64,000 bases of DNA from Geomonas subterranea (GTDB lineage Bacteria; Desulfobacterota; Desulfuromonadia; Geobacterales; Geobacteraceae): assembly GCF_019063845.1 (NCBI RefSeq), contig NZ_CP077683.1, forward strand, positions 3,340,501 to 3,404,500. The letters run 5' to 3'. The notes beneath the pieces were generated by a model, which was not told where the DNA came from, ran no database searches, and was given only the letters and a program-made list of their open reading frames with translations. Positions within the stretch are counted from its first letter, which is position 1. Each line of letters begins with the position of its first letter. The translations under genes and the position numbers were made by a program. Shown one piece after another: positions 4,935 through 59,224 of the stretch.

Positions 4935-5231
4935 ATGAAAGTCATGGTTGACCTGTGCATCGTCCCGCTGGGTGTCGGCGTATCCCTTTCCAGCTACATC
5001 GCTGCCTGCGAAAAGGTTCTGAACGACGCCGGCCTGAAGATCGCGCTGCATTCCTACGGGACCAACATCGAAGGGGAGTGGGACGACGTATTCGCCGCCA
5101 TCAAGCGCTGTCATGAGACGGTTCACGCCATGGGCGCCCCGCGCATCACCTCCACCGTTAAGCTCGGCACCCGCACCGACCGGGAGCAGAGCATGGAGGA
5201 CAAGATCAGGAGCGTGAAGGAGAAGATGTAA
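4935..5231 (+). CDS. MTH1187 family thiamine-binding-type protein
   Basis: A 98-residue protein of the MTH1187/YkoF-like superfamily, small ferredoxin-fold proteins reported to bind thiamine or hydroxymethylpyrimidine. Typical features are the N-terminal VDLCIVPLGVGVSLSSYIA, the central ALHSYGTNIEGEWDDVFAAI and the C-terminal TSTVKLGTRTDR. The start at ATG 4935 is set by AAGGAG nine bases upstream. No thiamine genes lie nearby, so the physiological ligand is not shown by context. Confidence 0.85.
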   Translation: MKVMVDLCIVPLGVGVSLSSYIAACEKVLNDAGLKIALHSYGTNIEGEWDDVFAAIKRCHETVHAMGAPRITSTVKLGTRTDREQSMEDKIRSVKEKM

Positions 5232-5351
5232 GGCTCCCCTGTGCGGAGAGGTTCGAGCCGCTTGCAAAACGTGCATCCCCACATATATTTCAACAGTCCC
5301 GGCTGGCCGCGCCGGGAGGGACGTCAATCTTTTCCCATGGGAGGTTCGTCT

Positions 5352-6503
5352 ATGTCGAAGAAACTGGTGATGTGCTTTGATGGGACCTGGAACAAACCGG
5401 ACGAGAAAAGCGACGGGAGAGACACCAACACCAACGTGGAAAGGCTCTTCGTCTCCATCGCCGGCGTCGATGCCAGGAATTACGCCGGTGGTGGCCTGAC
5501 CACCGGTACCCTGAAATGGTACGACTCCGGCGTCGGCACCAAGTGGTACGAACACATCCGCGGCGGCGCCTTCGGCTACGGGCTGTCGCTCAACATCCGC
5601 GAGGGATACAAATTCCTGATCGACAACTACGATCCTGGCGACGAGATCTACGTCTACGGCTTCAGCCGCGGCGCCTACACGGCCAGGAGCCTGGTGGGGC
5701 TGATCAGGAACTCGGGGCTGCTGGACCGGGAACAGATTCTCAAGATCCGGGACGATGATAACTACCCCTGCTGGCCGCGCCCGAACCTCGATCAGTTGAA
5801 AAAGATGAAAGCCGATGACGTTCCGCACATCATGGACGCCTACCAGCTTTACCGCAACCGGGACGGCAGCGCCGACACGGATTTCGCGGTGATCTTCAGG
5901 GGAAACTATGCCTACCCCGACGTGAAGATCAGGCTGCTCGGGGTCTGGGATACCGTCGGCGCCCTTGGTATCCCGTTCAAACTGTTCGAATCCTTCAACG
6001 CCGAACAGTACAAGTTTCACGACCAGGAACTAAGCGCCATCGTCGAGAACGCCTTTCACGCCATCGCCATAGACGAGCACAGGGAGAATTACGATGTGAC
6101 GATCTGGAATCCCAAGCAGAAGGTGAACCAGGTCATGGAGCAGGTATGGTTTGCGGGTGCGCACGCCGATGTCGGCGGAGGGTACGAGGTGCCGGAGCAT
6201 CCCCTTGCCGATGCAGCGCTGGCATGGATGCAGAAGAAGAGCCTGCTGAACGGAAGCGGGCTGACCTTCACGACGATGCAGCAGGTGGATGAAGAAAAGA
6301 TCCAACAGGCGCGCCCGACAGACTCCTTTAACCAGTTCCTCGGCGGCGTGTACCGGATGTTGAAAGACCGGCACTACCGGATGATGGGGGCAACGGAGTA
6401 CGGCAACGAATATTGCCACGAGATCTGCCGCCAGATGAAGGGGTACGCCCCCAGGAACAAGGGGTATGTCACGATAAAGTTCGAACTGCCTGCGTCACCC
6501 TGA
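5352..6503 (+). CDS. DUF2235 alpha/beta hydrolase (Tle1-like fold)
   Basis: A 383-residue DUF2235 protein. It opens with LVMCFDGTWN, the family's N-terminal signature, has the nucleophile elbow YGFSRGAYTARSL (GxSxG), an acidic segment LGVWDTVGALG and a late His in FAGAHADVGGGY, giving a Ser-Asp-His triad. Relatives include type VI secretion phospholipase effectors of the Tle1 group, but no secretion genes, VgrG or immunity gene occur in this window, and there is no signal peptide. The ATG at 5352 follows GGGAGG. A strong terminator follows at 6540. The role is probably that of a cytoplasmic lipase/esterase; this is inference. Confidence 0.85.
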   Translation: MSKKLVMCFDGTWNKPDEKSDGRDTNTNVERLFVSIAGVDARNYAGGGLTTGTLKWYDSGVGTKWYEHIRGGAFGYGLSLNIREGYKFLIDNYDPGDEIYVYGFSRGAYTARSLVGLIRNSGLLDREQILKIRDDDNYPCWPRPNLDQLKKMKADDVPHIMDAYQLYRNRDGSADTDFAVIFRGNYAYPDVKIRLLGVWDTVGALGIPFKLFESFNAEQYKFHDQELSAIVENAFHAIAIDEHRENYDVTIWNPKQKVNQVMEQVWFAGAHADVGGGYEVPEHPLADAALAWMQKKSLLNGSGLTFTTMQQVDEEKIQQARPTDSFNQFLGGVYRMLKDRHYRMMGATEYGNEYCHEICRQMKGYAPRNKGYVTIKFELPASP

Positions 6504-6539
6504 TGAGCGGCGGAGTCGCCGCAGCGCCGGTCTGAATAG

Positions 6540-6579
6540 AACGCCCGCCCCCTTGGGGGCGGGCGTTGTTGTTTTCTTT
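6540..6579 (+). terminator. Intrinsic terminator after the DUF2235 gene
   Basis: A perfect 13-bp stem, AACGCCCGCCCCC against GGGGGCGGGCGTT with a TT loop, is followed by GTTGTTTTCTTT. Confidence 0.85.
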
Positions 6580-50932: not shown

Positions 50933-53719
50933 ATGTCCGTCACAGAGCTGCAACTTAAGACCCTAGGCGACCGGATCGCCTCTTTCGGCAAGGAAAACCT
51001 GGACGAGATGCTGCACCTGGTAGGGGAGGGAGCGCGACTGGTCTCGGACCAGGAGCGGGTGCGCATCTACCTGGAGGACCTGACCCGCGGCGCGCTCTCC
51101 TGCGCCTTCGCCTGCGGCAGTTTCGCCGCCGAGATCCGCGACGAGACCTTCCCGATCATCTCCGCCGAAGCCGGCGTTTCCAATACCTTCGTCACCCAGA
51201 TGCCGTCCCAGTTTCTGCGCCCCGCAGACAGCGGGCTCCCCCTGGACCAAGACTTCTCCCGGCGCTTCCAGATCGACGGCACCACCATGCTCCCCATCAC
51301 CAGCGAGGGTAAATCGATCGGCGTCGCCTGCGTCGACGGGGAACTCCTCTCCCGGGACCGGATCGAGATGCTGCTCCCGTTCCTGGCCAGAGCCGGCGAA
51401 CGGGTGGACCATGCCCGCAAGTACCACCAGCAGCTGCTGCTGGCCCGCCGGGTCGAGGTCTACAAGAGAAGGGAGGCGGCGGGCTTCATGGTGCGCTCCG
51501 CCGTCAACCTGATCGACGGCCTGACTCTCGCCTCGGTGCTGGTCCCCGCGCGCGGCGGCATGGAGGTGCTGGCGAGCCACGCCGAGGACCCGGATCTGAA
51601 ATCCCGATACGACAACGTCGGCAGCATCGACTTGAAACACGGCACCTCGCTGGTGTCGCGCTACGTCAACGAGGCAGGGGTGGTGACCGACGACCAGCTC
51701 CTGAAACCGCTCTTCATCGCCGACCTCCAGGACCAGACCATACAGCGTCGCGCCCTGACCGAGGAGATGGGACTGAGAACGCTGTACATGGTGCCGCGCA
51801 TCGAGCCGGGGACGCGCCGGATCATCTGCCTCATCAACTACTTCACCCGCCAGCTCGCCAGCTTCTCCGAGTTCGAGGAGGGGCTGCTGCAGACCCACGC
51901 CGAGATGGTGGAGCGGGTCATCAACGAGGTGGGGGGCGAGCACCTCGAGATCAAGGTACTCTCCGAGATCTCCGACCTGCTGCAGGAGCGCAACGAGGGG
52001 CTGCACCCTTTCCTCACCAAGGTGCTCTCCAAGGCGACCGAGCTCATCGGCGCCGACACCGGGAGCATCGCCATCGTGCAGGAGCGCGAGGGGCAGAAGT
52101 ACCTGGTCGTCGAGAACGAGGAAGGGACCATCGTCGGAGCGAAAAACAAGGAGTGGCTGAAGAAGAAGATCCCCCCCTTCAAGATCGGTGGAAGCGACCT
52201 TCCCGCTGAAGAGCGCAGCCTCACCGGTTACGTCGCCTGGACCAAGGAGCCGAAGATCATCGGGCAGGTCACCGACACCTCGCAGCACGAGGGTTTCCAC
52301 CGCCCCATGAACGAGCTCATCAAGAGCGAGATGGCGGTACCGGTGATCAGCGATGACGAGGTGATCGCCGTCATCTGCCTCAACTCGCTCCAGGAAGGGT
52401 ACTTCACCGAAGAGCACAAACGCATCCTGCAGATCATCGACCGCCTCACCTCGCGGCACATCTCCGACATCCAGCGCATCGAGCGGCTGCAGTCCGAGGT
52501 GAACAAGCTGCAAAGCGACATCGCCTACAAGGACCCCAAGGTTTCTTCCTACCGGCTGGGCAACATCATCGGCAACAGCCGTAAGGCACAGGAGATCGTC
52601 GCCTTCATCAACACCGTGTCGCAGCCGCTCTCCAACCGGATCGCCCTTTGGAGCCGGCACGTATTGCAGGAGGCCACCATCGGCCTCCCCTCCATCCTGG
52701 TCCTCGGCCCTACCGGCGCGGGGAAGGAGTTCTTCTTTAACAACCTGTACAACAAGCTGAACGAGCTGTACCGGCAGCAGATCAACCCGGACGGCGAGCT
52801 CCCGGTCAAGAAGACCAACATCGCCGCCTACAGCGGTGATCTCACCTACTCCGAGCTTTTCGGGCACATCAAGGGCGCCTTCACCGGCGCGTACAGCGAC
52901 AGGAAGGGCATTCTGGAGGAAGCCTCCGGCGGCATCGTCTTCTTGGACGAGATCGGCGACGCCGACCCGAAGACCCAGGTGCAGTTGCTGCGCTTTCTTG
53001 ACAACGGCGGGTTCGTCCGCCTGGGCGAGAACCGTGAGCGGATCAGCCGCGTTCTGCTCGTAGCCGCCACCAACAAGGACCTGAGAAAGGAGATCGCCCT
53101 CGGCAACTTCCGCGAGGACCTGTACCACCGGTTGACCGAGCTTTCCGTCGTGGTGCCGTCCCTGAACGAGCGGCGCGAGGACATTCCCGACCTCTCCACC
53201 CACTTTTTGGGCAAGCTCTACCGGACCTATCGAAGCACCGAAGAAGCTAGCGGCGACGACGAGCCAAGCCTCTCCAAGGACGCCAAGGAAGCACTGGTGG
53301 GGCACAACTACAAGGGGAACATCCGCGAACTGAGGAGCATCCTCTTGCGCGCGCTGTTCTTCAGGACCGGCAAATTGGTGACCGGGGAGGATATCAGGAA
53401 AGCGATCCGGGATGGTTCTCGCGAGCAGGTGTTGCCCGCGTTCGAACTGCTGGCCGAGGAAGTGGCAAGCGGCATCATGAAGGATATCGAGGCGGGGAAG
53501 GACTTCTGGGAGGCCGTGTACGAGCCCTACTCCCAGAGCCGGATTTCGAAGGATGTGGTGCGTCTGGTAGTCGAGAGAAGCCGTACCGTTGCCGGCAAGA
53601 GCATGCCCGAAGTCGCCCGTCACCTGAAAGCCATCACCGGCTCCCCCCAGGAGGACGAGGAAGAGAGGAAGCGGTTTTTCAGGTTCAAGAACTTCCTTTA
53701 CAAGACGGTGAAGATTTAG
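50933..53719 (+). CDS. GAF-domain sigma-54-interacting AAA+ regulator
   Basis: A 928-residue protein. Residues 1-520 hold two or three GAF-like sensor domains joined by helices. The AAA+ core has Walker A VLGPTGAGKE, an insertion of about 25 residues, SELFGHIKGAFTGAYSD with an intact GAFTGA loop for sigma-54 contact, Walker B GGIVFLDEIGDAD, the Arg-finger NFREDLYHRL and GNIRELRSILLRAL. The C-terminal 110 residues lack an ordinary Fis HTH; the nearest is AGKSMPEVARHLKAITG, separated from its expected partner helix. ATG 50933 follows GAGGAA. It likely activates sigma-54 promoters on a small-molecule or redox signal. Confidence 0.88.
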   Translation: MSVTELQLKTLGDRIASFGKENLDEMLHLVGEGARLVSDQERVRIYLEDLTRGALSCAFACGSFAAEIRDETFPIISAEAGVSNTFVTQMPSQFLRPADSGLPLDQDFSRRFQIDGTTMLPITSEGKSIGVACVDGELLSRDRIEMLLPFLARAGERVDHARKYHQQLLLARRVEVYKRREAAGFMVRSAVNLIDGLTLASVLVPARGGMEVLASHAEDPDLKSRYDNVGSIDLKHGTSLVSRYVNEAGVVTDDQLLKPLFIADLQDQTIQRRALTEEMGLRTLYMVPRIEPGTRRIICLINYFTRQLASFSEFEEGLLQTHAEMVERVINEVGGEHLEIKVLSEISDLLQERNEGLHPFLTKVLSKATELIGADTGSIAIVQEREGQKYLVVENEEGTIVGAKNKEWLKKKIPPFKIGGSDLPAEERSLTGYVAWTKEPKIIGQVTDTSQHEGFHRPMNELIKSEMAVPVISDDEVIAVICLNSLQEGYFTEEHKRILQIIDRLTSRHISDIQRIERLQSEVNKLQSDIAYKDPKVSSYRLGNIIGNSRKAQEIVAFINTVSQPLSNRIALWSRHVLQEATIGLPSILVLGPTGAGKEFFFNNLYNKLNELYRQQINPDGELPVKKTNIAAYSGDLTYSELFGHIKGAFTGAYSDRKGILEEASGGIVFLDEIGDADPKTQVQLLRFLDNGGFVRLGENRERISRVLLVAATNKDLRKEIALGNFREDLYHRLTELSVVVPSLNERREDIPDLSTHFLGKLYRTYRSTEEASGDDEPSLSKDAKEALVGHNYKGNIRELRSILLRALFFRTGKLVTGEDIRKAIRDGSREQVLPAFELLAEEVASGIMKDIEAGKDFWEAVYEPYSQSRISKDVVRLVVERSRTVAGKSMPEVARHLKAITGSPQEDEEERKRFFRFKNFLYKTVKI

Positions 53720-53763
53720 CTGGCGCCCCCCTGCGCACCGCCCTTATTGCATTCACGCGCGAT

Positions 53764-54450
53764 CTAGAAGGCCTGGAAAAGCAGGAAGATGCCCACCGCG
53801 GCGACAAGAGCTCCCGCTCCACGTTTCGTCCAGCGGGAGAAAGCAACGATACCCTTCGCTTTTATGAAGGAGTCGACGAAACCGGTGAACGTACCTGCCA
53901 CCAGCATGAGAAGGCAGTGGCCGATGGCGTAGGTGAACAGCAGCGCCATGCCATAGAGGAGCCCCCCTTTGGCGGCCACAACCGTCAAAAGGATCACCAG
54001 GACCGGCGTCGCGCAGGGCGAGGAAACCACGCCGAAGAAGAGGCCAAGGAGAAACGCTCCCGGCACCCCTCCCCGCTTCGGCCTGTAGTTGATACCGGAA
54101 AACCAGTTGAGCTCGTAGAGCCCCAGGAGCTGCCCCCCCATTACGAGCGCCACCGCTGCGGCGGCCACGTACCACCATCCCCCGAGTGTTCCGAACATGG
54201 TGCCGAAAAGACCGGCGGCCGCGCCGAAGGCGGTAAAGGTCAGGGACAGCCCCAACACGAAGGCAAGCGAATACCTGAAGGCGCGCGCCCGGTCGCCGTT
54301 GGCGTACCCGCCGACGAAGCCGACGACCAAAGGGATGGTCGCCAGGACGCACGGTGAAACAGAGGACAACACCCCGGCCAGGAAGACGGTCCCGAAGGCG
54401 ATCAGGGGGTAGGCGGCGATGATCTGCTCGGCGTTGTCGAGGATGCTCAC
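53764..54450 (-). CDS. CcdA/DsbD-type transmembrane thiol transporter
   Basis: A 228-residue membrane protein with six hydrophobic helices. SSVSPCVLATIPLVVGFVGG and VVSSPCATPVLVILL carry the paired Cys-Pro residues that shuttle electrons across the inner membrane in CcdA. It starts at GTG 54450, overlapping the TlpA-like stop by four bases. It should pass reducing power from cytoplasmic thioredoxin to the exported thioredoxin-like protein. Last gene of the arsenic/thiol operon. Confidence 0.9.
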   Translation of the reverse strand: MSILDNAEQIIAAYPLIAFGTVFLAGVLSSVSPCVLATIPLVVGFVGGYANGDRARAFRYSLAFVLGLSLTFTAFGAAAGLFGTMFGTLGGWWYVAAAAVALVMGGQLLGLYELNWFSGINYRPKRGGVPGAFLLGLFFGVVSSPCATPVLVILLTVVAAKGGLLYGMALLFTYAIGHCLLMLVAGTFTGFVDSFIKAKGIVAFSRWTKRGAGALVAAVGIFLLFQAF

Positions 54451-54824
54451 CTTACCCCCAGCGCCTTCAACTCCCTCACGAGGTCCGCTTTTTCCAGCGC
54501 ACCGACATGTCGTTTCACCTCGCGCCCTTTGGCGTCGAAGAACACCTGGGTCGGAATCATCTGGACTTTGAACCTCTCGGCTGCGGCGTTGTCCGCATGC
54601 ACGTCGATGAACAGCACCGAGGCCCGTCCGCGGTATTGTGATCCGAGATCCTCCAGGATCGGCGCCATCTTTTTGCATGGGATGCAGGTGCGAGCCCCAA
54701 GGTCGATGACGGTGGGCTTGCCGGAGGCGAGAGCCTTGCGGATGACGGCGTCGGAGGCCGAGGGGAGTTCGGCATGGGCGGGAAGGGCGAACAGCAGCAG
54801 GGCTGCAGCGAGCAGTCGCTTCAT
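54447..54824 (-). CDS. Exported thioredoxin-like protein
   Basis: A 125-residue protein. MKRLLAAALLLFALPAHAEL is a Sec signal peptide with an Ala-x-Ala site. The thioredoxin fold has RTCIPCKKMAPILE (active site CIPC) and the cis-Pro in QMIPTQVFFD. It is periplasmic or membrane-facing and a natural partner of the CcdA protein encoded next. Overlaps of four bases with both neighbours imply tight coupling. Confidence 0.9.
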   Translation of the reverse strand: MKRLLAAALLLFALPAHAELPSASDAVIRKALASGKPTVIDLGARTCIPCKKMAPILEDLGSQYRGRASVLFIDVHADNAAAERFKVQMIPTQVFFDAKGREVKRHVGALEKADLVRELKALGVR

Positions 54825-55051
54825 GACAGCATCTCCATGATTTCGACTACCGATGCCACCTTGCCGGAGAACTTCACCTGGCCGTCGATGACCAGCGCGG
54901 GAGTGCTCATCACCCCGTACTTCATGATGGAGGGGATATCCTCTACCTTCAGCACCTCCGCCGCGGTGCCGGTCTCCTCGACCGCTTTCTTCGTGTTCTC
55001 GTACAGGGTCTTGCATTTGGCGCATCCGGTACCAAGGACTTCGATTTTCAT
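54821..55051 (-). CDS. Small thioredoxin-like (redox-active disulfide) protein
   Basis: A 76-residue MTH895-type mini-thioredoxin. MKIEVLGTGCAKCKTLYENT holds the CxxC site, and MSTPALVIDGQVKFSGK the cis-Pro strand. It is cytoplasmic. In other genomes it accompanies DUF318 permeases and arsenic genes. It lies 14 bp after the permease and overlaps the TlpA-like gene. Confidence 0.88.
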   Translation of the reverse strand: MKIEVLGTGCAKCKTLYENTKKAVEETGTAAEVLKVEDIPSIMKYGVMSTPALVIDGQVKFSGKVASVVEIMEMLS

Positions 55052-55065
55052 GCTCTTTCTCCTCT

Positions 55066-56013
55066 CTATAGGATGGCGTTGAACAAATAGCCGACAATCA
55101 CGATCGCGGCCGCGACGATTCCGAAAAAGGTGGCGAGAAGCCTCGTCTTCAGGACGTTCTTCAAGATGACGGCCTCGGGTAAGGACAGGGCCGTCACCGC
55201 CATCATGAAAGCTAGCACCGTGCCGATCGGGAGCCCCTTCTCCATCAGGGCCTGGACCACCGGGACGATGCCGGCCGCGTTGCTGTAGAGCGGGACACCG
55301 ATAAGGACCGCCAGCGGCACCGCCAGGGGGTTGTCTCTACCCGCGTAGCGGACCAGGAGATCCTCCGGGGCGTAGCCGTGGATGAAAGCTCCCAGGCCGA
55401 TGCCGATTATCACATACGGCCAGATCTTCTTGAGGAGCCCCACCGTGTAGCCGGCGGCGTAGTCGAGTTTTTCACGGAAGGTCTGTTCCTGCATCTCGGC
55501 GGCCCCGACCTTGATCTCCCAGACATAATCCTGAACGTGCCGCTCCATGCGGAGCCTGCCGATCACCATACCGGCGACGATCGCCACCACGACGCCGGAG
55601 CCGACATAGGTGAGCGCGATCTTCCAGCCGAACAGTCCCCAGAGCATGATGAGCGCCACCTCGTTCACCATGGGAGATGAAACGAGGAAGGAAAAGGTGA
55701 CCCCGAGCGGGATGCCGGACTCGACGAAACCGATGAACAGGGGAACCGCCGAACAGGAGCAAAAAGGTGTCACTATCCCCAGAAGTGCCGCGAGCACGTT
55801 GCCGACGTACTCGCGGTTGTGGGAAAGGATGCGCCGGGTACGCTCCGGGGAGAAATAGGAGCGGATCACCGCGACGACATAGACGATAGTAGTCAGCAGC
55901 AGGAAGATCTTTACGGTGTCGTAAACGAAGAAGTCGAGGGCCCCGCCGAGCCGGCTCTTTGCATCGAGACCGACAACCTGGAACACGAAGTAATCGGCAA
56001 AGGTTTTTAGCAT
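55066..56013 (-). CDS. DUF318/ArsP-type permease
   Basis: A 315-residue permease with eight or more hydrophobic helices. VTPFCSCSAVPLFIGFVESG is the family's cysteine motif, and a second conserved half has GVPLYSNAAGIVPVVQALM. The DUF318 family includes ArsP, an exporter of trivalent organoarsenicals. Here the arsenic operon context supports export of an arsenical or thiol-bound metalloid. It is 12 bp after the AhpD-like gene. Confidence 0.88.
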   Translation of the reverse strand: MLKTFADYFVFQVVGLDAKSRLGGALDFFVYDTVKIFLLLTTIVYVVAVIRSYFSPERTRRILSHNREYVGNVLAALLGIVTPFCSCSAVPLFIGFVESGIPLGVTFSFLVSSPMVNEVALIMLWGLFGWKIALTYVGSGVVVAIVAGMVIGRLRMERHVQDYVWEIKVGAAEMQEQTFREKLDYAAGYTVGLLKKIWPYVIIGIGLGAFIHGYAPEDLLVRYAGRDNPLAVPLAVLIGVPLYSNAAGIVPVVQALMEKGLPIGTVLAFMMAVTALSLPEAVILKNVLKTRLLATFFGIVAAAIVIVGYLFNAIL

Positions 56014-56025
56014 GGAAGGCTCCTA

Positions 56026-56286
56026 TCAGGACAAAGAACAGCCACACCCCTTATCGGCACCTTCGTTGTTCAGGCCTGACACATTGAAGCTCGCGGCATA
56101 CTTATCCATCTTTGCCGCGGCACCTCTTCTGACGGTTTTACCGACCTGTATCGCATCCTGAATCTCCTGCTCGTCGGCACCGTACTCTTTGGCTTTACCG
56201 GTGTGGTACTCAAGACATGGCTGACAGTTCGCGGTGATGGAAGCTCCGATTGCAATCAGTTCCATGATGCGGTCATCAAGTTTCAT
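56026..56286 (-). CDS. AhpD/carboxymuconolactone decarboxylase-like protein
   Basis: An 86-residue protein of the AhpD-like fold. IAIGASITANCQPCLEYHTG is the motif with CxxC and a nearby His (CxxCxxxH), the peroxidase/disulfide site. The C-terminus ends GCGCSLS, an extra CxC that could bind metal or arsenite. It is likely a small thiol-disulfide protein. It is encoded between the DUF2703 and permease genes with gaps of 16 and 12 bp. Confidence 0.88.
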   Translation of the reverse strand: MKLDDRIMELIAIGASITANCQPCLEYHTGKAKEYGADEQEIQDAIQVGKTVRRGAAAKMDKYAASFNVSGLNNEGADKGCGCSLS

Positions 56287-56302
56287 GGCCCCCTCCTTTT
56301 TC

Positions 56303-56701
56303 TTATTCAGATGGCGTTATTAATTCGGCAGCAGCCAAAAGCCCGGCTTTAACAACAAGTTCCTTGGGCACCACCTCGTAATCGCGCCCAGCCACCGAAA
56401 CCGTTCTGCAATCATTGTCACCGCACGGGCCACAGCACCGGCTTTGTCCCGTTTGCACCTTCAGCCACTCTTCAAGCGGCTTCCCCGCGACCCATACCCG
56501 GTTTGACTCGAGCGGGTCCTGGGCGAATTCCGCTTCACCCAGGTGCGAGCTCTCGGCGATTACGGAGATGTTCAACGGCGCCAGCGCCACCCGTAGGAGA
56601 TCTACTGCCTCCTGGACCTCGTCCCCGGTTCCAGCACAGCGGCCACACGTCTTGCCGGCGTCATCCACGAGACGTTGCCATCTGATTCTGAGTTCGGCCA
56701 T
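56303..56701 (-). CDS. DUF2703 domain protein
   Basis: A 132-residue DUF2703 protein of unknown function. Cys-rich motifs are KTCGRCAGT near the N-terminus and SRCCGPCGDNDCRTV around residue 90. The fold is probably thioredoxin-like: the segment LNISVIAESSHLGEAEF followed by SNRVWVAGKPLEEWL resembles that of thiol-binding small proteins. ATG 56701 follows GGAGGACC. The arsenic operon context suggests arsenical binding or transfer; this is inference. Confidence 0.85.
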   Translation of the reverse strand: MAELRIRWQRLVDDAGKTCGRCAGTGDEVQEAVDLLRVALAPLNISVIAESSHLGEAEFAQDPLESNRVWVAGKPLEEWLKVQTGQSRCCGPCGDNDCRTVSVAGRDYEVVPKELVVKAGLLAAAELITPSE

Positions 56702-56721
56702 AGGTCCTCCACCGCCTTTGC

Positions 56722-57156
56722 CTACGGAGTGGCAGAAGGAATCCACCCCTTTACTTTCGCAGCTATGGCATCCCGTATCCGCCTGATTGCCAACAGCTTC
56801 TCTTCATCCGTTCCCCTCAGAGCCGACGGATCGGGAAAGCCCCAGTGCAGCCGCTTCGCCGCTCCTGGAAAGATCGGGCAGCGCTCGGCGCTCGTCTCGT
56901 CGCAAACGGTGACCACGTAATCGAAGAGGACCCCTTTCTCGATGAATCCGGCAACGTCCTTGGTCCGGTTCCCCGAGATGTCGATCCCCACCTCCTTCAT
57001 CGACTGGACCACCAGCGGGTTCAGGGTCCCCGGTTCGATCCCGGCGCTTTCAGCCTCGAAGACATCCCCGCCAAGCCGCTTCAAGAAGGCTTCCGCCATC
57101 TGGCTCCTGGCGCTGTTGTGGATGCAGACGAAAAGAACCTTCACCTTGTTTCCCAT
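56722..57156 (-). CDS. arsC: Thioredoxin-coupled arsenate reductase
   Basis: A 144-residue LMW-phosphatase-type ArsC. VLFVCIHNSARSQMAEA is the CX5R P-loop, and VCDETSAERCPIFPG holds the two further Cys of the relay, as in S. aureus ArsC. It reduces arsenate to arsenite with electrons from thioredoxin, and a thioredoxin-like gene lies in the same operon. The ATG at 57156 is preferred over a GTG three bases upstream for ribosome-site spacing. Confidence 0.95.
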   Translation of the reverse strand: MGNKVKVLFVCIHNSARSQMAEAFLKRLGGDVFEAESAGIEPGTLNPLVVQSMKEVGIDISGNRTKDVAGFIEKGVLFDYVVTVCDETSAERCPIFPGAAKRLHWGFPDPSALRGTDEEKLLAIRRIRDAIAAKVKGWIPSATP

Positions 57157-57171
57157 CACCCTCCCCTCCTC

Positions 57172-58227
57172 CTAAACCGCGGCCCGCGCAAAGTAGCGGC
57201 GCTGGAACCAGAAAGCCACGTTGACCAGGGCGATCATCACCGGCACCTCCACCAGGGGACCTATGACGGCGGCGAACGCGGCGCCCGAATTGAGGCCGAA
57301 AACTGCCACGGCGACCGCTATCGCCAGCTCGAAGTTGTTGCTGGCCGCGGTGAACGCAAGGGTCGTGGTCTTTGAGTAGTCGGCTCCGAGCCTCTTCCCC
57401 ATCCAGAAGGACACCAGGAACATGAAGATGAAGTAAATGAGGAGCGGTACCGCAATGCGGACCACGTCCAGTGGTAGCTGGACGATGAGGCTCCCCTTCA
57501 GGCTGAACATGACGACGATGGTGAAAAGTAGCGCCACCAGGGTGACAGGCCCTATCTTCGGAACGAACTCCCGGTGGTAGCGCTCTTTCCCCATGACCTT
57601 CACGCCGACGAGCCTCGTGACCGCACCGGCGATGCACGGGATGCCGAGGTAGATGAAAACGCTCTTGGCGATCTGCTCGATGCTGACATCGACGACACTA
57701 CCGGAGAGGCCGACGAGCGGGGGAAGCACCGTAATGAAGAACCAGGCATAGACGCTGTAGAAGAGCACCTGAAAGATGCTGTTGAAAGCCACCAGACCGG
57801 CCGCGTATTCGGTGTTCCCATCCGCCAGTTCGTTCCAGACGATGACCATGGCGATGCAGCGGGCCAGGCCGATCATGATCAGTCCCACCATGTATTCCGG
57901 CTTGTCCGGGAGGAACACCACGGCCAGGACGAACATCAAGACCGGTCCTATCAGCCAGTTCTGCACCAGGGAGAGCCCCAGCACGCGCTTGTTGTGGAAT
58001 ACCTCCGGCATCTCCTCGTACTTCACCTTGGCGAAGGGGGGATACATCATGAGAATGAGACCAGCGGCAATGGGTATGTTCGTCGTGCCGACCTGGAAGG
58101 AGTTGATGAAACCCTCCACTCCCGGGACCAGGTACCCTGCCGCCACGCCAAAGAGCATGGCAAGGAAGATCCAGAGGGTGAGGTAGCGGTCGAGGAACGA
58201 AAGCTTCTTGGAAACGCCGGCTGACAT
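57172..58227 (-). CDS. acr3: ACR3-type arsenite efflux permease
   Basis: A 351-residue, ten-helix ACR3 exporter. Marks are [18 protein letters not shown] (the conserved Cys needed for arsenite transport), [16 protein letters not shown] and [20 protein letters not shown] (the conserved Asn/Glu in helix 9). It exports arsenite made by ArsC. AAGGAG precedes the ATG. It follows arsR by 58 bp, with a second operator-like site in the gap. Confidence 0.96.
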
Positions 58228-58252
58228 GAAAACTCCTTAAACGGTTCTTTGC

Positions 58253-58268
58253 ATCCGAATGGGCGGAT
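58253..58268. promoter_or_regulatory. Second ArsR operator-like site (arsR-acr3 gap)
   Basis: ATCCG (58253-58257) and CGGAT (58264-58268) with a 6-bp centre, the same architecture as the arsR operator. Confidence 0.55.
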
Positions 58269-58285
58269 ATATCAGGCAAAAAAAA

Positions 58286-58624
58286 TCAGGCGCAGTGAGC
58301 ACCTTCGGAAAAGGAAGCGAGTCGCTTGATGTCTTCACCTACCACGGCGATTTCGGCCAGGCGCTCTTTGAGCACCTCGGCGAGTTGCCGCTTCATGTCG
58401 TCGTCTGTGGCGACGGTGTAAAAGATCCAGACCCCTTCCCTGCGGTCGTTCACCCATCCTGCGTTCTTGAGATAGGAAAGGTGCCTGGAGACCGTCGACT
58501 GCGGAAGCTGCAGCGTCGCGGTGACGTCGCAGACGCAGAGCTCTCCGGAGTTGAGGAGGAGTGCCAATATGCGGAGGCGGGTTTCATCCGCCAGGGCTCT
58601 GAAATACTGGACTGTCTTTTTCAT
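58286..58624 (-). CDS. arsR: ArsR family arsenic-responsive repressor
   Basis: A 112-residue ArsR/SmtB winged-helix repressor. FRALADETRLRILALL is the N-terminal helix; GELCVCDVTATLQLPQ holds the ELCVCD arsenite-binding motif of helix 3, followed by the recognition helix STVSRHLSYLKNAG and the wing RREGVWIFY. The ATG at 58624 is within two bases of the predicted transcription start and has no Shine-Dalgarno sequence, so its mRNA may be leaderless. It heads a nine-gene minus-strand operon. Confidence 0.95.
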   Translation of the reverse strand: MKKTVQYFRALADETRLRILALLLNSGELCVCDVTATLQLPQSTVSRHLSYLKNAGWVNDRREGVWIFYTVATDDDMKRQLAEVLKERLAEIAVVGEDIKRLASFSEGAHCA

Positions 58625-58631
58625 ACGGGGG

Positions 58632-58659
58632 AATATATCCGGATAAGCGGATATGTCAA
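58632..58659 (-). promoter_or_regulatory. arsR promoter with ArsR operator in the spacer
   Basis: On the minus strand TTGACA (58659-58654) and TATATT (58637-58632) with a 16-bp spacer. Between them lies the perfect palindrome ATATCCG-N6-CGGATAT (58635-58654), so a bound ArsR dimer would cover both boxes. Confidence 0.8.
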
Positions 58660-58724
58660 GGAAGAAATTGATAGTCCCGGCCCGGGGGCAGACCCGGTTC
58701 GTGCAACTTCCTGCGGCACCGTGC

Positions 58725-58757
58725 AAAAAATCCCCCGGAGCGGGTGGCGCTCCCGGG
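58725..58757 (-). terminator. Intrinsic terminator of the azlCD transcript
   Basis: On the minus strand CCCGGGAGCG pairs, with one bulge, with CGCTCCGGGG, followed by GATTTTTT. It protects the arsR promoter from upstream read-through. Confidence 0.75.
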
Positions 58758-58780
58758 CATGGATAGCGGCAACTCCCGGG

Positions 58781-58915
58781 TCAGTACGAGTAGAGGACGG
58801 TCAGGGCCGCCTTTCCCCTGGCGTTTGAGATGCTCTCACCTTCGGTCTCTATGCGGTAAAGAGGGAAGCACGTCAACGGCTCACGCTCTGGCGGGGCAAC
58901 TGCGCGGAAAGTTTA
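58781..58915 (-). pseudogene. Possible coding remnant between azlD and its terminator
   Basis: After the tandem TAA TAA that ends azlD, the same frame stays open for 43 codons to TGA at 58783-58781, finishing LYRIETEGESISNARG and then KAALTVLYSY. This ending looks like the C-terminus of PilX/PilV-type minor pilins. A TTG at 58876 is the only possible start (31 codons). It may be a 3' gene fragment; I cannot prove that it is coding. Confidence 0.3.
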
Positions 58916-59224
58916 TTACCCCATCTTACGCACGGCGAAGATGACGAGCATGCCGCAGAGCATGGCGGCGAGGGTGTTGCGGGTACGAAGCACGACGATG
59001 GCGGTAAGCGCGGCGGCCATGAGACCCCATACGCCTTCGGCGACGATGGACGGCAACACGAGCGAGAACAGCAGCGCACCCGGGAGGGCATCCATGCCGC
59101 GCCGGAAGCGACCGGAGCGCGGGAAGCGGGATGCGAGCAGCAGACCGCCCAGCCGCAAGGAGTAGGTCACCCCCGCGGCAAGCCCCACCGCGATCAGCAC
59201 CTGCGGCTCAATAGCTGGGAACAT
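58916..59224 (-). CDS. azlD: AzlD-type branched-chain amino acid exporter subunit
   Basis: A 102-residue membrane protein with about four hydrophobic helices. VLIAVGLAAGVTYSLRLGGL is typical of the family start, and LPGALLFSLVLPSIVAEGVW and the closing NTLAAMLCGMLVIFAVRK match AzlD. It forms the small subunit of the AzlCD branched-chain amino acid (or azaleucine) exporter. Its start overlaps azlC by 17 bp. Confidence 0.88.
   Translation of the reverse strand: MFPAIEPQVLIAVGLAAGVTYSLRLGGLLLASRFPRSGRFRRGMDALPGALLFSLVLPSIVAEGVWGLMAAALTAIVVLRTRNTLAAMLCGMLVIFAVRKMG

Follow-up and report, generated by a model that had tools for sequence, protein, structure and literature searches.

A window of 64,000 nucleotides from Geomonas subterranea (contig NZ_CP077683.1, positions 3,340,501 to 3,404,500 of the forward strand; the host genome is complete, 4.99 Mb in one contig) appears to carry a conserved, ArsR-linked second efflux arm, built around an ArsP_1 permease and stacked on a standard ars operon. 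This is a known kind of system. The nine genes concerned are a local stack of smaller units and not one conserved system, as an earlier note made from the sequence of the window had proposed. In relatives, they fall into separable pairs, and the AhpD-like gene directly adjoins the permease only in the window genome and one other (G005), of 58 genomes. The units are (i) arsR-acr3-arsC; (ii) the genes for the ArsP_1 permease and for a mini-thioredoxin of the ArsE family; (iii) the genes for CcdA and an exported thioredoxin, which come and go together; and (iv) the optional genes for DUF2703 and an AhpD-like protein. Two points are worth following: the linkage of DUF2703 to the permease in this order of bacteria, and an operator-like site shared with an arsR-hgcA locus.

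All nine open reading frames (ORFs) were confirmed, on the minus strand from 58624 down to 53764. They are present in the order and under the names of the earlier note, and Pfam and NCBIfam agree (scores are in bits, each against its cut-off).

58286..58624 (-), arsR, ArsR/SmtB repressor with an ELCVCD motif; PF01022 58.8 against 22, NF033788 95.5 against 55
57172..58227 (-), acr3, As(III) efflux transporter; TIGR00832 457.7 against 282.8; C124 conserved in 39 of 39
56722..57159 (-), arsC, GTG start, arsenate reductase of the low-molecular-weight (LMW) phosphatase type (thioredoxin type); PF01451 60 against 23.2
56303..56701 (-), DUF2703 gene, predicted thioredoxin-like protein; PF10865 126.6 against 23.6
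56026..56286 (-), AhpD-like gene with a CMD domain, CxxC and a GCGC tail; PF02627 47.2 against 23
55066..56013 (-), ArsP_1 permease gene; PF03773 278.6 against 32.3; C85, C87 and H212 invariant
54821..55051 (-), mini-thioredoxin gene (ArsE/MTH895 family, CAKC); TIGR00412 113.9 against 62
54447..54824 (-), exported thioredoxin gene (CIPC; signal peptide judged by eye); PF00085 58.8 against 23.5
53764..54450 (-), gene for a CcdA-type membrane thiol oxidoreductase; PF02683 (DsbD_TM) 79 against 27.1

Separable units of the cluster

Eighty named permease loci were read, and 53 of them were used for the neighbourhood count; the other 27 were excluded because the contig gave less than 4 kb downstream or less than 2.5 kb upstream. 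On the same strand and within 4 kb of the permease, arsR was found in 49 of the 53 loci, the mini-thioredoxin gene in 48, the thioredoxin and CcdA genes in 33 each, acr3 in 24, arsC in 13, DUF2703 in 11 and the AhpD-like gene in 1. Either acr3 or arsC occurred anywhere in the locus in 32. In 33 of the 53 loci, a single strand holds the permease, mini-thioredoxin, thioredoxin and CcdA genes within 6 kb. This refutes, for the core, the explanation that adjacent genes came together here once by chance, to which we give almost no credence. That explanation stands only for the exact nine genes, a content that was found in no other locus examined.

The thioredoxin and CcdA genes behave as a pair. 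Of all 80 loci, with contig ends unfiltered, 45 have both, 34 lack both and 1 has only ccdA, and they lie downstream of the permease in 33 of the 33 counted loci that have them, never upstream. The mini-thioredoxin gene accompanies the permease even where CcdA is absent. Five plasmid neighbourhoods were also inspected, picked by hand among 30 listed of 628 records (Pseudomonadota, Chloroflexota). A mini-thioredoxin gene lies near the permease in all five (1.8 kb off in Sulfuricella) and the thioredoxin-CcdA pair in none, suggesting that the mini-thioredoxin primarily goes with the permease. On the Sulfuricella plasmid pSCD, arsC-acr3-permease is followed by an arsenite methyltransferase gene. 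Comamonas and NT-25 have other ars genes near the permease, Citrobacter has DUF2703 but no annotated ars gene, and Chlorohelix has an ArsR-family gene only. A relay from the mini-thioredoxin through CcdA to the exported thioredoxin is possible in the window, though it is not general.

These counts bear on a rival explanation for the pair, in which it would repair, in the periplasm, the cytochrome c maturation dithiols poisoned by exported arsenite, independently of what the permease carries; these metal reducers depend on cytochrome c maturation. In its favour, the two genes behave as a pair and are missing from all five plasmid neighbourhoods. Against it, they always lie downstream of the permease, and a CcdA-superfamily protein, ArsG, occupies the equivalent slot in a true ArsEFG locus. 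We consider periplasmic repair of this kind distinctly unlikely.

Within the genus, the permease occurs in 13 of 18 genomes, and their 13 loci hold the mini-thioredoxin gene (13/13), the thioredoxin gene (13/13) and the CcdA gene (12/13; it was not found in L125). In five of them acr3 lies between arsR and the permease, in five an ELCVCD-type arsR directly precedes the permease, and in three the ArsR is of the ERCVCE type. Among the 58 relatives, the permease was found in 35 and acr3 in 55. The earlier note had stated that its reading would fall if the last six genes occurred mostly away from arsenic genes in other genomes. The answer is divided: 18 of the 35 permease genomes have acr3 no more than 10 kb from the permease, and an ArsR-family gene is close by on the same strand in the 49 loci counted above.

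The permease most similar to that of the window, among those found, is 95% identical and belongs to the sister genome G003, where arsR leads directly to the permease; the nearest counterpart in a named locus is that of Geomonas diazotrophica (91% identity). Within the arsR-permease gap of G003, a stretch of 73 nucleotides aligns at 94.5% with the final part of the AhpD-like gene in the window (E 1.5e-28), with a local score of 68 where shuffles reached at most 15. This scar marks a deletion of the AhpD-like gene, with the permease module retained; whatever preceded that gene was presumably lost with it. The acr3 gene of G003 lies 667 kb from the permease. The permease module therefore needs no adjoining Acr3 or ArsC. 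No such scar was found in the other four stand-alone arsR-permease gaps: the gaps of L122, L128 and L131 gave no score above the shuffle maximum, and an arsC remnant seen by eye in the gap of L129 was rejected because its score was 11 against a shuffle maximum of 17. Only in L121 was the shuffle maximum exceeded.

In the window, the gaps from arsR downward are 58, 12, 20, 16, 12 and 14 bp, followed by two 4-bp overlaps. The widest gap is 58 bp, as the earlier note had it. A third overlap that it counted would need DUF2703 to start at an upstream GTG (56746). A start at the ATG at 56701 is favoured by a good ribosome-binding site (by eye) and by its agreement with the start of the Pfam domain, and two overlaps are therefore likelier than three. 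The claim that an arsenate reductase is joined to a second permease and a CcdA/thioredoxin pair also stood, as an LMW-type ArsC precedes these genes and the cysteines are conserved. C12, C86 and C94 of ArsC, which we take to be the three catalytic cysteines, are kept in 24 of 24 sequences; this ArsC scores 122.6 bits with TIGR02691 (pI258 thioredoxin type), under the cut-off of 174.3. The mini-thioredoxin (PDB 1ilo, E 1.2e-16) has C10 in 74 of 74 and C13 in 73 of 74 sequences, the exported thioredoxin keeps C47 and C50 in 46 of 46, and CcdA (PDB 5vkv, also CcdA, E 1.8e-10) keeps C34 and C146 in 47 of 47. C85, C87 and H212 of the permease are identical in 81 of 81. Its model has a pLDDT of 76.2 and gave no Foldseek match at E <= 0.001; there was no PDB sequence match at E <= 1.

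Other genes recur near the permease. Two genes resembling cation-diffusion transporters (by eye) stand between the permease and mini-thioredoxin genes in one locus (L038:8914-10546), and a cation-diffusion-like family lies within 4.5 kb of the permease in 16 loci. MoaA-like and MoeA-like genes (named by eye) were seen in seven loci each (e.g. L044:5267-6286 and L020:12298-13659).

Proposed function of the putative second efflux arm

The most economical reading remains that of the earlier note, namely that a second, probably organic, arsenical is handled besides inorganic arsenic. We judge the chances to be somewhat better than even that the cluster is an ArsR-repressed operon of stacked modules, in which another efflux arm serves an arsenical that is trivalent and probably organic. 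In the first arm, ArsC would reduce arsenate and Acr3 would pump out arsenite. In the second, the mini-thioredoxin would keep an arsenical that is trivalent, and probably methylated or aromatic, in the reduced state, or pass it on by thiol exchange, and the C85/C87 pair of the permease would receive it before the permease exports it. CcdA and the exported thioredoxin would be a separate pair moving electrons from cytoplasmic thiols to the periplasm, so that the arsenical is kept trivalent or periplasmic dithiols hit by the exported arsenical are repaired. DUF2703 may be a further cysteine-rich thiol carrier serving the permease, and the AhpD-like protein, where present, may reduce disulfides or act as a scavenger. 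What the analysis shows is the gene content, the families, the conserved cysteines, the operator-like sites with their conservation, the linkage, the AhpD scar in G003 and the matching slots of ArsE, ArsF and ArsG; we infer from these the repression by ArsR, the substrate, the way in which thiols are passed on and these last two roles. If the reading is true, anaerobic metal-reducing soil bacteria, paddy species included, have at hand, next to the inorganic arm, another that exports trivalent organic arsenicals and is put together and taken apart one gene at a time.

The closest model for such an arm is ArsEFG, which Chen, Zhang and Rosen reportedly described in 2019 and which is said to confer resistance to aromatic arsenicals. 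ArsG scored over its cut-off in 2 of 146 genomes of the class (loci L217 and L218). The order in L217 is permease, ArsE (106.9 bits, cut-off 62), ArsF (114.8, cut-off 60) and ArsG (304.5, cut-off 200). Because ArsE, ArsF and ArsG follow a homologous permease there, we read the permease module and the thioredoxin-CcdA pair as an ArsEFG-like arm. The permease, ArsE-family protein, thioredoxin and CcdA of the window fill the same slots, and its mini-thioredoxin passes the TIGR00412 cut-off for ArsE. By this analogy, the window module may work like ArsEFG without belonging to it. A related permease family and thioredoxin-like family are known from one named system, SaoE/SaoT, to which the window does not belong (128 against 325 bits for SaoE, NF040736, and 21.5 against 65 for SaoT); nothing related was found for SaoE/SaoT among the literature matches listed. 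Between arsR and the permease of L217 (10856-12469) there is a gene for an iron-sulfur protein related to GlpC/heterodisulfide reductase, which scored below all listed cut-offs.

Several results weigh against the two-arm reading. The thioredoxin-CcdA pair is absent from 20 of the 53 loci, and no acr3 was found within 10 kb of the permease in 17 of the 35 permease genomes, several of which are drafts with the genes on separate contigs. The window thioredoxin is not ArsF, as NF040494 is absent from its 14 listed families (E <= 0.01), and its CcdA reaches 40 bits with the ArsG model NF040495, whose cut-off is 200. In L218 the permease is followed by an ArsF-like gene (judged by eye) and then by ArsG, and no mini-thioredoxin gene turned up there. 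Outside the order, only 5 of the 19 DUF2703 genes have a permease within 1.5 kb. A terminator-like hairpin behind arsR could split the transcript. Also, no close arsM match was found in the window genome (one query, E <= 1e-25; distant ArsM types could escape), and permease presence does not track arsM (permease in 5 of 11 arsM genomes, p 0.32).

As that query gave no close arsM, the host was rejected as the maker of any methylarsenite. This, together with the lack of tracking, means that methylarsenite, if it is the substrate, would come from neighbours, as reported for an anaerobic methylator of paddy soil (PMC11653729, in the part of the text available). No arsM relative was found in the scanned loci with the same query protein (E <= 1e-15).

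A fair rival, although we hold it to be improbable, is an inorganic back-up pump. The permease would then be a redundant exporter of arsenite or antimonite, the thiol proteins would serve ArsC and general As(III) stress, and no organic arsenical would be involved. ArsC of the LMW class uses thioredoxin, which suits this rival, as do the missing arsM match and the presence of one ELCVCD ArsR and one recognisable promoter, ahead of arsR-acr3-arsC. However, with acr3 in nearly all relatives (55 of 58), redundancy is seldom needed, and in 5 of the 13 same-genus loci an ELCVCD arsR is followed at once by the permease module, with no acr3. Moreover, ArsP exports methylarsenite, MAs(III), and trivalent roxarsone, not arsenite, according to the available part of a review (PMC6205960); this would extend to the ArsP_1 protein of the window if the two are orthologues.

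Several described operons resemble that of the window in part. The ArsP operon of Campylobacter jejuni has ArsP and Acr3 together, an organic and an inorganic arm, as proposed for the window; no redox genes are named for it in the same part of that review. The CcdA/thioredoxin core of the cluster has been known since 2010, and the window is a variant of described systems. CcdA, thioredoxin and 'redox-active disulfide protein 2' were reported that year in ars operons (PMC2963123), in eight instances in seven organisms, seven of the eight with arsC. In its available text, thioredoxin is proposed to supply ArsC, and a transfer of electrons through the membrane by CcdA is raised as a possibility, the latter with doubt. 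These are the same three redox genes as in the window, but that portion of the text does not tie them to the ArsP_1 slot, DUF2703 or an AhpD-like protein, and gives no operator. It was the sole relevant paper on ars operons with CcdA among the matches listed, which leave subscription journals mostly uncovered. The role of CcdA and thioredoxins in arsenic operons, a question from 2010, becomes simple to ask.

DUF2703 and the AhpD-like protein

In this order, DUF2703 partners the permease more than ArsC or Acr3. It was found in 10 of the 58 relatives (E <= 1e-8), with the G039 copy broken by two stops and the G034 copy partial. In all 10 carriers it lies within 3 kb of the permease, and in 8 within 0.4 kb, while only 3 have it within 2 kb of acr3. 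The arrangement arsC-DUF2703-permease is seen in the window and in G008. The linkage to the permease within the order is a new observation. The earlier note had found no defined role for DUF2703, which now gains a testable partner in this order.

The linkage is looser outside the order. In the phylum, DUF2703 was found in 20 of 297 genomes (E <= 1e-12). With flanks of at most 1.5 kb on each side (shorter in L227, L231 and L242), 13 of the 19 genes from outside the order lacked matches to all of permease, mini-thioredoxin, arsR, acr3 and arsC, and DUF2703 as a universal arsenic gene was therefore rejected. A mini-thioredoxin gene was near 4 of the 19, and the neighbours of ten of these genes looked varied by eye. 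In Rhodococcus aetherivorans BCP1, a DUF2703-arsO operon is induced by arsenate (PMC6514093, available in part). It adjoins an arsR-acr3-arsC set, as DUF2703 does in the window, but there the partner of DUF2703 is arsO, and it is not transcribed together with arsC3, whereas in the window its partner is the permease.

A thioredoxin fold is likely for DUF2703, judging from its predicted structure, and had already been predicted in 2010 (PMC3091736, in the text available). The AlphaFold model has a pLDDT of 92.1 and places the CxxC at the start of helix 1. With this model, Foldseek gave no match at E <= 0.001. The best pdb_via row has a Z of 7.3 (root-mean-square deviation 3.4, 87 aligned), and the tool states that Z values of 7 to 8 are common without a relative; most of its 50 rows are thioredoxin, PDI or SelW folds. 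C19, C22, C89 and C98 are invariant in 15 of 15 sequences, and three sequences end in cysteine-rich tails.

The GCGC tail that the earlier note pointed out in the AhpD-like protein is present in the window protein but is not a trait of the family, as of 9 sequences, counting that of the window, 2 retain C81 and 4 retain C83. One in-frame TGA was seen in each of the AhpD homologues of G012, G023 and G031 and the arsM-like genes of G028, G038 and G041. Homologues of this arsenic-linked group with an in-frame TGA are consistent with selenoproteins.

Promoter, operator-like sites and the hgcA locus

Four control features were predicted at the head of the cluster.

58632..58659 (-), sigma-70-like promoter of arsR, TTGACA-16-TATATT, 11 of 12 consensus matches
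58637..58654 (-), operator-like site O1 (ArsR-type inverted repeat), spanning the promoter spacer and touching both hexamers
58288..58304 (-), terminator-like hairpin with T8 at the end of arsR
58253..58270 (-), operator-like site O2 in the arsR-acr3 gap

The promoter is the sole promoter-like match in 53400-59000. As shuffles average 1.4, the evidence for it is its position and its overlap with the operator, not the count. The operator pattern was derived from O1 and O2 themselves, so that both match exactly by construction; they are the only exact matches in the 4.99 Mb genome. With up to two mismatches, there were 15 matches compared to 1 for a reversed control pattern. The sole site with one mismatch (the opposite-strand reading of the palindrome excluded) is at G000:C1:13952-13969, directly upstream of a second ELCVCD-type arsR that is followed by hgcA (L119: arsR 4980-5381, hgcA 5612-6541; HgcA 418.6 bits, cut-off 275). 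Thus, the genome's three best operator-like sites all adjoin arsR genes.

All 10 ELCVCD-type Geomonas loci have a looser site, ATnCG-n-CGnAT, upstream of arsR, and 9 of the 10 have a further copy downstream, in the O2 position, whatever gene follows; neither was found in the three ERCVCE-type loci. These 13 same-genus loci are from related species, and the counts are non-independent. The ArsR of the window has the ELCVCD motif, which we take to be of the As(III) type, and it would repress the nine-gene cluster at the predicted operators. A promoter at O2 was rejected, as there were no conserved -10 and -35 elements in the aligned gaps (by eye) and none in the promoter scan, and O2 is left as a putative auxiliary operator. 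In 37 of the 80 named permease loci (e.g. L003-L007), the nearest same-strand ArsR has ERCVCEI or EKCVCEI in place of ELCVCD (by eye). The upstream operator is absent for this subtype in three Geomonas, and its ligand may differ.

The earlier note described the genes as running without a break. The short gaps agree with this, and caution is due to the terminator-like hairpin. In 53400-59000, both strands gave 9 terminator-like sites against 5.1 +/- 2.6 in shuffles, which makes the arsR hairpin weak when taken alone. Of 11 ELCVCD-type Geomonas arsR ends that were compared, 8 retain its T8 run, which L120, L126 and L127 lack. At the arsC-DUF2703 junction, the terminator scan gave no minus-strand terminator-like site.

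The operator-like site common to the nine-gene cluster and arsR-hgcA is a new observation, and from such sites the mercury methylation genes look to be part of an arsenic-type regulon. Published work describes the control of hgcAB by ArsR and the occurrence of ars genes close to hgcAB (PMC7438021 and PMC10349881, each available in part), and no report of a shared ars-hgc operator was found among the matches listed. A site of the form ATCCG-n-CGGAT was found within 2.5 kb upstream in 10 of 46 hgcA loci (L171-L216, 45 genomes), with three looser matches uncounted.

A broader explanation would make the permease and thiol proteins a general exporter of methylated soft metals and metalloids, including the methylmercury of HgcAB in methylating relatives, with ars and hgc genes as one regulon read by ArsR through the same operator. 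The permease does lie within 11 kb of hgcA in 5 of the 27 relatives that have both (L171, L172, L173, L174 and L175), and hgcA lies in 5 of the 80 named permease loci (flanks up to 8 kb). We think this explanation very unlikely, and a methylmercury exporter was rejected as the main function, because the permease and hgcA occur independently (hgcA in 27 of the 35 genomes with the permease and in 18 of the 23 without it, p 1.0) and, among the 46 hgcA loci read, 9 have acr3. With the shared operator, the published link between arsenic and mercury methylation can be tested in a Geomonas.

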